From a virus, in the IMG/VR virus record IMGVR_UViG_3300025098_000108, positions 1 through 40,992 of that record: 40,992 bases of DNA. One strand, 5' to 3'. A program made the position numbers and the translations under genes. Below the pieces are notes generated by a model that worked only from the letters and a program-made list of their open reading frames with translations, did not search any database and was not told where the DNA came from. Shown in pieces: positions 1,172-36,045 of this stretch. The number at the start of each line of letters is the position of its first letter. The stretch's first letter is position 1.

Positions 1172-1333
1172 ATGGGTTACAGTAAAAGAGAATATTATAA
1201 TTTAATAACAATAAATAGTCAGGATTTTTATGACTATGAATATTATCAATCAAATGACGAAAGAAGAAGCACTTCAGAAAATAGAGAAGGTGGTAGTGGA
1301 GAAGCTCCAAGTACCAGTCGACAGTCTATTTAA
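1172..1333 (+). CDS. Possible small overlapping reading frame (53 aa)
   Basis: This ATG-started frame (MGYSKREYYNLITINSQDFY...) runs 53 codons and overlaps the first 104 bases of the DnaA-like gene in another frame. The first half, rich in Tyr, Asn and Asp, looks like coding sequence of this phage. The second half, rich in Ser, Gly and Arg, looks like a shadow of the other frame. It may be a small real gene whose end overlaps, or a chance frame. A sequence error joining it to the next gene is another possibility. Confidence 0.3.
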   Translation: MGYSKREYYNLITINSQDFYDYEYYQSNDERRSTSENREGGSGEAPSTSRQSI

Positions 1334-1556
1334 CAAATCAAAAAAGAGAAATCACATTGATGCTAGGCAAATTTACTTCTATCTGTGTAAGGATAGAAAT
1401 ATAAGACCTTGTTATATACAGGATTACATTTTTAGTGAGCATAATCACAAGATGGCTCATTCTAATATTTTATACGGACAAGATAAGATTAGAAATGAAA
1501 TGAGAGTAGATAGCGATTTAAGAGATCTTATAAAAGAATTAAAATGTTCAGTCTAG
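1230..1556 (+). CDS. DnaA domain-IV-like DNA-binding protein
   Basis: The 108-residue product resembles the C-terminal DNA-binding domain of the replication initiator DnaA without its ATPase part. The order VDSLFNKSKKR, then ARQIYFYL near residue 45, then HSNILYG and KI near residues 77-85, and a closing DLRDLIKELK helix follows the domain-IV pattern of an Arg/Lys basic loop, an ARQIAMYL-type helix and a signature H-S/T helix. It probably binds specific DNA in replication or gene control. The start could instead be ATG 1254 (MTKEEALQK), which fits the family better. It overlaps the next gene by 13 bases. Confidence 0.6.
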   Translation: MTMNIINQMTKEEALQKIEKVVVEKLQVPVDSLFNKSKKRNHIDARQIYFYLCKDRNIRPCYIQDYIFSEHNHKMAHSNILYGQDKIRNEMRVDSDLRDLIKELKCSV

Positions 1557-3504: not shown

Positions 3505-3511
3505 AACTAAT

Positions 3512-3640
3512 ATGACGACTATGACGACTTTTTTAGAATTATTTATAATAAATATAATTGGGTATACTACTTTATTTTTTTTATTATTTTTTCTTATAGA
3601 AGTCGTCATTTACGTCATAAATAGTATAAAGAAGCTATAA
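3512..3640 (+). CDS. Possible 42-aa single-span membrane peptide
   Basis: In the gap before the primase gene an ATG frame runs 42 codons. The product begins MTTMTTFLELFIINIIG, continues through a long hydrophobic run (YTTLFFLLFFLIEVVIYVI) and ends in basic NSIKKL. This is one clear transmembrane helix with a positive end, which suits a tiny membrane protein. The caution is that T-rich DNA gives Phe, Leu and Ile by chance, and the same stretch carries repeats that may be a control region. A second ATG at 3521 is possible. Confidence 0.4.
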   Translation: MTTMTTFLELFIINIIGYTTLFFLLFFLIEVVIYVINSIKKL

Positions 3641-3682
3641 ATCAGTAAGTTAAGAATTTTAAAATCGTCATAGTATGTCATA
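3512..3682. repeat. GACGACT/AGTCGTC repeat cluster, candidate origin or control region
   Basis: ATGACGACT occurs twice in tandem (3512-3520 and 3521-3529). Its reverse complement is at 3600-3609 (AAGTCGTCAT), pairing perfectly over 10 bases with 3521-3530. Related CGTCAT or TGTCAT copies follow at about 3613-3618, 3666-3671 and 3676-3681. The 69 bases between the arms are almost all A and T. Short direct and inverted repeats around an AT-rich core, directly before the primase-helicase and after the recombination genes, resemble a replication origin or a regulatory site. Confidence 0.45.
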
Positions 3683-6074
3683 CATCACCATATTTAAAAA
3701 CATAAAGGATACCACCCAACCTTTTCACCTACCTGTTAAAGACATTATAGAAAGAATAAGTAATGGGACTTCAGAAGATCTTATTAAGAGGATTAGAACA
3801 GAAAAAGACAAAAAAAGAATTAATGAACTAAAGCAAGAGTTACCTGCTATATGTTTTAGTGGAAAGTTTAACAAAAGAAACGATGATTCCATTTTGGAGC
3901 ATAGTGGTTTGATATGTTTAGACTTCGACAAGTACGATACCCAAAAGAAATTACACCAACATAGAGAAGAGTTAATTAGTGATGAGTTTGTTTATTGTGT
4001 TTTCATATCACCATCCGGCAAGGGCCTTAAGGTTTTAATCAAGGTCCCTGCTGATGTTGATAACCACGTTAAATATTTTATGGCTCTACAGCAATATTTT
4101 GATTCAGAGTTTTTTGACAGCACATCTAAAAACATATCAAGGGTTTGTTACGAGAGCTACGACCCTTTAATACACATCAATGAAGACTCATTGATTTGGG
4201 ATAAAATTACTGACACTCCAATAGTTATGGAGAATAAAGAAGTCACAATCCCTATTACGGATCAAACTAAGATTGTAGAGATTTTAGTAAAGTGGTGGGA
4301 GAAAAAATACCCAATGAATGAAGGTCAAAGAAATCAAAATGCTTTTATATTGGCATCATCATTTAATGACTTTGGTATAGAGAAATCTCTTGCTGAGTAT
4401 GTATTGAATGGGTTTCAGTCACAAGACTTTACTATAAACGAGATTAAAAAAACTATTGACTCTGCTTATGCCAACTTATCTAATTTTGGAACAAGAGTTT
4501 ATGAGGATTCTGAGAAGATAAACCAGATTAAGTCAAATATTTTAAAAGGCAAATCAAAGACTGATATCAAGAAATACTTTGACGAAGTAGATGAGAAAGT
4601 TTTAGATAGTGTAATTGATAGAGTTGAGGAAGAGAGTTTTGATAACAAGTTTTGGACCAAAAGTAAAAAGGGTGTTATTAAAATATTTCACGTAAAGTTT
4701 AAAATGTTTTTAGAAGATAATGGTTTTTACAAGTACAATCCTGAAGGAAGTAAGAATTATGTGTTTGTAAAGGTCACTAACAATTTAATTGATCACGCAT
4801 CTGAAAAACAAATCAAAGACTTTATACTTACTCACTTACTTACCATAGACGACATAGAGATATACAATTATTTTGCAGAACATACTAAATATTTTAGGGA
4901 AGAGTTTTTGACATTATTAGATTCAATAAATGTTTTCTTTATTGAGGATACTAAAAATGAGTCTTACATATATTATAAAAATTGTGCAGTTAAAATTACT
5001 AATGACACTGTAACACCTATTGATTATATTGATTTAGGTGGTTATGTTTGGAAGGATCACGTTATAGATAGAGATTTTAAAGAGTGTGAATCAATAGAAT
5101 GTGATTACAAACAGTTTATATCTAATATTTGTGCTAAAAACCAAAAGAGAATAGAATCTACTGAAAGCACAATAGGTTATTTAATGCACGGATATAAGAA
5201 TTTATCTTACTGCCCAGCAGTGATATTAAATGATGAGGTGATTAGTGATAATCCAGAAGGAGGAACAGGTAAGGGTTTGTTTATGAATGCCCTACAACAT
5301 ATGAAGAAGTTAGTAGTTATAGATGGAAAGGGTTTTGATTTCCAAAAGTCTTTTGCCTATCAATTAGTTTCTGCTGACACTCAGATACTTTGTTTTGATG
5401 ATGTAAAAAAACACTTTGACTTTGAGAGATTATTTAGTGTGATTACAGAAGGATTGACTTTAGAGAAGAAAAACAAGGATGCTATTAAGATTCCTTTTAA
5501 AAAGTCACCAAAAGTTGCTATTACTACTAACTACGCTATAAAAGGAAAGGGTAATTCTTTTGAAAGAAGAAAGTGGGAGTTAGAATTAAATCAATACTAC
5601 AATAAGTCATTTACTCCTTACGATGAGTTTGGCAAGTTAATGTTTGGTGAGTGGACCGATAATGAGTGGTGTAGTTTTGATAATTATATGATTTACTGTC
5701 TACAGTATTATATGAATAAGGGATTGGTAAAAAGTTCATTTGTTAATCTTAAAATACGTCAATTATCTGCTGAGACTTGTTATGAATTTATAGAGTGGGT
5801 TGGATTATTGGATGGTAAGAGTTTAAACGAAGACTTTGATAAAGGTTTTAAAGTTTATAAGCAGGAGTTGTATCTTGATTTTATATCAGAGAATCCAGAC
5901 TTTGCCCCAAAAGCAAAAATGACTGTTTCGAGAATTAAATTTTATCAATGGCTAAATTCTTATGCTGTTTTTAAGACAGGTGTAAAACCCGAAGAGGGTA
6001 AAGATATGACTGGAAAATGGATTAGAATAAGGAGTAAGCACGAGTTAGAAACCAATGGAACATTAAGCATATGA
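3675..6074 (+). CDS. Primase-helicase (BT4734-like primase plus SF3-type helicase)
   Basis: The 799-residue protein has a BT4734/VirE_N-like N-terminal domain (residues about 1-180). Motifs LICLDFDKYD (hhhDhD, near 80) and SPSGKGLKVLIKV (near 113) fit an archaeo-eukaryotic-type primase fold. A helical PriCT-like part follows (GQRNQNAFILA, near 217). The C-terminal half is an SF3/D5-like helicase: EGGTGKGLF near 535 is the Walker A loop, ILCFDDV near 579 is Walker B, and KVAITTNY near 615 fits the sensor region. It likely unwinds and primes phage DNA. No DNA polymerase is seen in the window, so host or out-of-window polymerase would be used. It follows the repeat region directly. Confidence 0.85.
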   Translation: MSYITIFKNIKDTTQPFHLPVKDIIERISNGTSEDLIKRIRTEKDKKRINELKQELPAICFSGKFNKRNDDSILEHSGLICLDFDKYDTQKKLHQHREELISDEFVYCVFISPSGKGLKVLIKVPADVDNHVKYFMALQQYFDSEFFDSTSKNISRVCYESYDPLIHINEDSLIWDKITDTPIVMENKEVTIPITDQTKIVEILVKWWEKKYPMNEGQRNQNAFILASSFNDFGIEKSLAEYVLNGFQSQDFTINEIKKTIDSAYANLSNFGTRVYEDSEKINQIKSNILKGKSKTDIKKYFDEVDEKVLDSVIDRVEEESFDNKFWTKSKKGVIKIFHVKFKMFLEDNGFYKYNPEGSKNYVFVKVTNNLIDHASEKQIKDFILTHLLTIDDIEIYNYFAEHTKYFREEFLTLLDSINVFFIEDTKNESYIYYKNCAVKITNDTVTPIDYIDLGGYVWKDHVIDRDFKECESIECDYKQFISNICAKNQKRIESTESTIGYLMHGYKNLSYCPAVILNDEVISDNPEGGTGKGLFMNALQHMKKLVVIDGKGFDFQKSFAYQLVSADTQILCFDDVKKHFDFERLFSVITEGLTLEKKNKDAIKIPFKKSPKVAITTNYAIKGKGNSFERRKWELELNQYYNKSFTPYDEFGKLMFGEWTDNEWCSFDNYMIYCLQYYMNKGLVKSSFVNLKIRQLSAETCYEFIEWVGLLDGKSLNEDFDKGFKVYKQELYLDFISENPDFAPKAKMTVSRIKFYQWLNSYAVFKTGVKPEEGKDMTGKWIRIRSKHELETNGTLSI

Positions 6075-35485: not shown

Positions 35486-36045
35486 AACATCATTGTTATA
35501 TTTTTAGATTTCATTCTATATAGAATCTTATCGTCTATCTTAAACTCATACTCCGACTCTGGTTTAAAGCACACTTTATCTCCTTGTTTAACACCTAAAT
35601 AAGTTAGTTCGGGATTAGTTATTTCTACTGTTCCTGTAAGAGCTTGATATCTATCGTTGTTAAATATAATAGATTCTTCTTTAGAAGAAGGTTTTATAAA
35701 ACAGTAATCTAAGTGAGACTTCCATTTTCCATTTTGCTGATACATAAAAAACTGAGTAGGTTCCACTATAAACAAATTGTCTTTTAAAAAACTTCTTCCG
35801 CTTTTCTCTCTACCCTTCATATCGTTATAATACTTAAAAACATTGTGGTGAACTACCAATATGTCACCCACTTTTACATCACCATCATAATTGATTGGAG
35901 TAGCTACTACATTGGCAAATCGATTAGAAACAGTATGATCTTCTTTAGATGAGCTTGTAATAAAGTCAACTTCTCCTATTTTTTTCACGTTATCGTACCG
36001 AGTATCATTAACCGGAGTTACAATAAAACCAAAAGGTGACTTCAT
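35482..36045 (-). CDS. Tandem GroES-like co-chaperonin protein
   Basis: The 187-residue protein appears to hold two GroES-type units. Unit one (residues about 5-100) has FIVTPVND, NRFANVVATP, DVKVGDILVVHHNVFKYY and NLFIVEPTQFFMY. Unit two (residues about 112-187) has DYCFIKPS, TGTVEI, GVKQGDKVCFKPESEYEFKIDDK and LYRMKSKNITMML. Each follows the GroES order of a start strand, a V-x-x-GD strand, a long loop strand with a charged turn and a final LYR..I-type strand. It may help the host chaperonin fold the capsid proteins, as T4 gp31 does. It lies just upstream of the packaging genes. The fold is inferred by eye. Confidence 0.55.
   Translation of the reverse strand: MKSPFGFIVTPVNDTRYDNVKKIGEVDFITSSSKEDHTVSNRFANVVATPINYDGDVKVGDILVVHHNVFKYYNDMKGREKSGRSFLKDNLFIVEPTQFFMYQQNGKWKSHLDYCFIKPSSKEESIIFNNDRYQALTGTVEITNPELTYLGVKQGDKVCFKPESEYEFKIDDKILYRMKSKNITMML

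Follow-up and report, generated by a model that had tools for sequence, protein, structure and literature searches.

The satellite phage P4 carries two separate iteron-bearing sites, ori and crr, and its alpha protein is a fused primase-helicase with a primase of the DnaG/TOPRIM type. In PICI origins, two sets of iterons lie on both sides of an AT-rich region (PMC6092414), and the pSC101, P1 and R6K origins are assisted by IHF (PMC4980987). Replication origins of marine Bacteroidetes phages are undescribed as far as the literature searched shows, and nothing on point was found there for DnaA-domain-IV proteins encoded by phages or for the origins of Flavobacterium phages.

We analysed a stretch of viral DNA of 40,992 bp (IMG/VR record IMGVR_UViG_3300025098_000108), here called the window, in which the gap upstream of a primase-helicase gene had been predicted to be a candidate origin. 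The gap holds a repeat element that is real, conserved and present as a pair in related genomes, and this element is probably an iteron-type replication origin at which replication of the phage starts. As in iteron origins, regularly spaced direct repeats adjoin an AT-rich stretch of low stability and a helicase gene. We regard the element as a new, paired variant of iteron origins, with a predicted function.

Like PICI/SaPI origins, the element consists of two sets of short iterons around an AT-rich core, next to a primase/helicase gene, and the SaPI5 primase-helicase (7om0) is a structural match for that of the phage. However, a PICI origin lies immediately 3' of rep in an integrase-bearing island, whereas the phage element lies 5' of its primase-helicase. 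The inverted 5' and direct 3' sets, the fixed spacing, the IHF-like box and the second genomic copy belong to the phage element only, and an integrase is absent. With the iteron plasmid origins pSC101, P1 and R6K it shares iterons, an AT-rich candidate DUE and a putative IHF site within about 200 bp, but no DnaA box TTATCCACA was seen at window positions 3505-3682, the predicted initiator is not of the RepA/RepE type and there are two copies per genome. P4 is alike in its two separate iteron sites in one small genome and in its fused primase-helicase; the phage primase, however, is PrimPol-like and both phage sites have one and the same element in full. To have two origins in a small genome is unusual, which counts against reading the pair as origins.

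Anatomy of the element

Within the gap, tandem copies of ATGACGACT occupy 3512-3520 and 3521-3529, and ATGACGACTT (3521-3530) is matched perfectly over its 10 bases by an inverted copy, AAGTCGTCAT (3600-3609), with 69 bases between them. The two-copy arm of 18 bp at 3512-3529 recurs inverted at 3601-3618 with three mismatches (expected 0.00), and these two iteron sets stand on both sides of the AT-rich stretch 3530-3600. Further copies are ACGTCAT (3612-3618), AATCGTCAT (3663-3671) and TGTCAT (3676-3681), the last over the primase start at 3675. TCGTCAT occurs eight times in the whole window, four of these in the gap element. Close CGTCA pairs give two matches, both in the gap, against 0.07 expected, and the clustering of five CGTCA/TGACG within 180 bp (3512-3681) was reached in none of 300 Markov-1 simulations of the window. 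The tandem copies, the inverted partner and the further CGTCAT/TGTCAT copies of the original prediction are thus present and beyond chance. Its neighbours are also as described, with an ERF annealing protein and a PDDEXK exonuclease encoded upstream and the primase-helicase downstream. The "nearly pure A+T core" is indeed the most AT-rich 70-mer of the 41-kb window, and its least stable 80-mer, but at 89% A+T it falls short of pure. Coordinates are collected in Table 1.

Table 1. Features of the element and its surroundings in the window.
Feature	Position	Strand	Basis and remarks
Stand-alone DnaA domain-IV-like protein A	1230..1556	+	PF08299 (Bac_DnaA_C), 35.4 bits, cut-off 31.5
5' inverted iteron pair	3512..3529	-	AGTCGTCAT twice, 9-bp spacing; read from sequence
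42-codon open frame	3512..3640	+	Hydrophobic stretch, overlaps element
T-rich core, candidate DNA unwinding element	3530..3600	.	89% A+T; composition and stability
Middle direct iteron pair	3601..3618	+	AGTCGTCAT, TTACGTCAT; 9-bp spacing; read from sequence
IHF-consensus-like box	3640..3652	+	AATCAGTAAGTTA; one mismatch to WATCAANNNNTTR
3' iterons	3663..3681	+	AATCGTCAT, GTATGTCAT; 10-bp spacing in the window; last one overlaps primase start
Primase-helicase	3675..6074	+	Pfam BT4734-like_N (AEP/PrimPol-like), PriCT_1, DUF5906 (D5/SF3-like helicase), helix-strand C-terminal region

Conservation among relatives

A search with the primase returned 80 viral loci, and spacing was scored in 41 loci. 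An element of about 170 bp precedes the same primase-helicase in nearly all loci, and repeats and layout are kept in about 75. From 5' to 3', the shared plan opens with an inverted pair, followed by the T-rich core and a direct pair; next come a box that reads TATTRATWATCARWWAGTTA, more copies in direct orientation and the primase start. An equivalent of the 5' inverted pair is present in relatives, mostly with 9-bp spacing; the middle pair is spaced by 9 bp in 37/41 scored loci and the 3' pair by 11 bp in 35/41 (10 bp in the window). No clear element was seen before the primase in L024, L068 and L069, and by-eye reading found it absent at the same place in elemoF, Panino, phi46:1 and Larrie, four distant phages whose primases are related at the N-terminus.

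An independent retrieval by protein A alone gave 80 loci, many of them near-duplicates, of which 57 include the primase. All 57 primase-bearing loci have an element match near the primase, four of them only at E 0.05-0.23, and many of the loci with long upstream flanks hold a distal copy too. In the complete relatives, too, duplex stability at the elements is usually low, with elements among the top eight least stable sites in 20/26 cases. The original prediction proposed to look for conserved repeats at the same locus in relatives, and these are found in the 75 or so primase loci, the 57/57 protein A loci and 14 complete relatives. A well-bounded element with a precise grammar, shared by many uncultured genomes, would allow the start of replication to be predicted directly.

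The repeat core itself varies among phages (CGTCA, CGACA, CAACA, TAACA, GAACA or CATCA), and at least nine changes of class are needed along the primase tree. Within a phage, middle and 3' copies agree at the two variable positions at a rate of 0.97, compared with 0.63 when loci are shuffled. Such joint change among the copies of one phage is what would be expected if a single DNA-binding protein reads them all.

A different source of conservation was also considered, namely a gene for a 42-codon membrane protein, of which the repeats would be coding sequence. In each of the eight distinct close-clade sequences tested, very diverged cores among them, the frame stays open over 39 codons (chance about 0.05-0.08 each), while the other two frames are closed, and pN is below pS between the window and L002/L004/L006/L010. 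Since the frame stays open against such chances, a small membrane protein in the close clade of the window is possible. However, the pooled pN/pS of 0.84 is no better than that of the wrong frames (0.71 and 0.98), and a T-rich strand encodes hydrophobic residues anyway. Distant loci have 0 to 49 codons open at the frame position and the frame is missing from the second copies in G001 and G002, while the repeats persist. The original prediction would have been refuted by repeats that are lost where the frame is kept; the outcome is the reverse, with repeats family-wide and the frame in the close clade only. A frame so restricted cannot explain the conservation of the repeats and is refuted as its cause, and we hold the coding reading to be very improbable.

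The second copy

The full sequences of 13 near-complete relatives (59-65 kb) were scanned with a profile of the proximal element, the one at the primase. All 13 contain two substantial elements and no more, in the same orientation, one at the primase and the other 8-13 kb upstream. The circular record MW202828, which was left out of profile building, likewise gives exactly two matches (42617-42786 and 53545-53747). Distal and proximal copies agree in repeat class at 0.97, against 0.54 when shuffled (p 0.0005; eight genomes scorable). With two elements per genome in the same orientation and 8-13 kb apart, initiation would use either one or both.

The distal copy lies 0-2.1 kb from the cumulative GC-skew minimum in 14/14 genomes, a coincidence that is confounded because the minimum is also the point at which gene direction switches. 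In the window, positive skew is seen to the left and to the right of 3.5 kb, and that the proximal element sits inside uniformly positive skew counts against an origin there. The cumulative GC-skew check that had been suggested for the gap consequently fails for the gap itself; in the complete relatives the minimum is beside the twin element 8-13 kb upstream. The candidate-origin reading of the gap gains support from the conserved repeats and layout, but has to be amended in that the skew minimum lies elsewhere and the gap is one of a pair. The pair could not be seen earlier because the window is a 40,992-bp fragment without the distal region.

The main rival to the origin reading is a pair of operators, in which a transcription regulator of the phage, possibly protein A in the manner of a DnaA-domain regulator, would bind the repeats and control the primase operon from one copy and the groEL/early region from the other. 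Concerted change at a paired site is just as compatible with a regulon, the distal copy sits just upstream of the leftward groEL gene, and a terminator hairpin precedes the proximal element in most distant relatives, which leads one to expect that the primase operon has a promoter close by. However, the copies share one orientation while the adjacent genes run opposite ways, and the Bacteroidetes -7 element TAnnTTTG is missing on the + strand at the proximal copy in 12/13 genomes. No promoter is visible within the element, and the leftward groEL promoter-like sequence TATATTTG lies outside the distal element, nearer to groEL. Further, a simple operator has no need of a T-rich core of very low stability or of an IHF-like box. 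On these grounds we consider the operator reading unlikely.

Several features of the distal region are recorded here in their own right. GroEL and GroES-like genes stand directly beside the distal element (L086:14009-15598 and L086:13455-13742, both on the - strand; MW202828 40671-42561). Near groES, a lone rightward gene of about 150 aa (L086:13016-13489, + strand) lies among leftward genes and recurs in most complete relatives; its counterpart in MW202828 is annotated as a repressor protein. The distal element of G002 (L086), at about 35680-35770 of the record, contains extra box copies, each followed by an iteron, an arrangement which suggests that box and iteron may form a repeatable module.

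Candidate initiator proteins

The primase-helicase resembles PrimPol/D5-type enzymes. Foldseek matches include AsfvPrimPol, MPXV E5/D5, the SaPI5 primase-helicase (7om0) and RepB', obtained with a structure model of moderate confidence (pLDDT 71) in which the helicase stretch 509-658 is poorly modelled.

The original prediction also pointed to a DnaA domain-IV-like protein encoded upstream, and this fold is confirmed by Pfam, by a profile search against PDB DnaA structures (5e-8) and by Foldseek, in which the model (pLDDT 96.6) aligns with the DnaA-box complex 3pvp at TM 0.79-0.84 and rmsd 1.4. Bac_DnaA_C has a match in 14/14 genomes. The fold of protein A is that of DnaA domain IV on its box (3pvp, 1j1v), and the commonest iteron of the relatives, TTATCGACA, is one base off the DnaA box TTATCCACA; the window iteron AATCGTCA is further from it than TTATCGACA. 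In contrast to DnaA, protein A (108 aa) consists of the domain-IV part only, with AAA+ domain III absent, and it has another residue where the DHTT motif has Asp (AHSN in the window).

In the distant relatives L014-L080, a gene some 2.5 kb beyond the primase (e.g. L053:11188-11670) encodes a second DnaA-domain-IV-like protein, protein B, which was not found in the window or in L001-L012, the clade of the window. Protein B keeps a DnaA-like DHATIIHY motif, and its annotation in MW202828 is chromosomal replication initiation protein.

The family offers a natural experiment, as repeat specificity has switched at least nine times and all copies stayed matched, so that the binder could be identified by pairing iteron classes with candidate proteins. 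In partial Mantel tests, the repeats correlated with protein A at r 0.05 (p 0.18) and with protein B at r 0.03 (p 0.32); protein A, whose binding to the repeats is conjectural, showed no coevolution with them beyond general relatedness. Sliding-segment Mantel tests along the primase found nothing clearly localised. A branch-coincidence scan placed primase residue 14 at the top (z 4.15), a signal that did not recur in an enlarged set, and hence no binder is claimed.

In the mechanism we propose for an origin, the short repeats that flank the T-rich core would be bound by a DNA-binding protein of the phage, for which protein A, the primase-helicase or the two together are the most likely candidates. 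The box, which separates the middle from the 3' repeats, would be bent by an IHF/HU-like protein of the host, and the strained core would then melt. The PrimPol/D5-type helicase encoded next door may load there and subsequently prime, and either element might fire. A more specific version is possible but somewhat doubtful: Bacteroidetes podophages would have a split initiator, in which a stand-alone DnaA domain IV reads drifted DnaA-box-like iterons and a PrimPol-D5 helicase melts and primes, at a pair of identical origin elements that both need to be engaged, as with P4 ori/crr, and in which the specificity of the repeats has changed many times, jointly in both elements. Should the binder prove to be the DnaA-domain-IV protein, the box-reading module of DnaA would here be working apart from its ATPase motor.

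The IHF-like box

The sequence WATCARNNNNTTR, a form of the IHF consensus that allows A or G at position 6, is found on the + strand in 39/56 proximal elements and on the - strand in five, against 0.013 expected per stretch, and in 8/13 distal elements. Exact WATCAANNNNTTR occurs in 20/56 relatives. No phage-encoded HU/IHF protein was detected (0/14 genomes), and an IHF-like host protein is the natural reading of what would bind the box. The N4 spacer of the box has an extra conserved AG, and these two bases leave room for a binder other than IHF.

Repeats together with IHF sites are also found in lambda cosB and in the attP sites of tyrosine recombinases, and the element might accordingly be a packaging, partition or recombination site (cos/pac, parS-like or attP). 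However, the terminase genes are far off on the other strand, and a pair of copies next to primase and groEL, separated by 8-13 kb, would be odd for cos/pac. No Phage_integrase domain was found in the window or in 13 complete relatives, and the attP reading is rejected on this ground. These calls rest on Pfam, for which the control was positive in 14/14 reference genomes, a crude motif scan having been discarded after it missed the L192 integrase. We rate this group of site types as quite improbable.

When the box alone was searched in bacterial genomes, the listed matches were mostly from Bacteroidetes, at a number of the same order as a rough chance estimate for AT-rich genomes, and a few of them had mnmE, an integrase, a tRNA or a BT4734-like primase as a neighbour. 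At L190 (Arcicella MAG), positions 4358-4377, the same box lies between GTGGCA repeats, 176 bp after the BT4734-like primase gene of a bacterial contig, and judged by this arrangement it is possibly a related origin in another mobile element.
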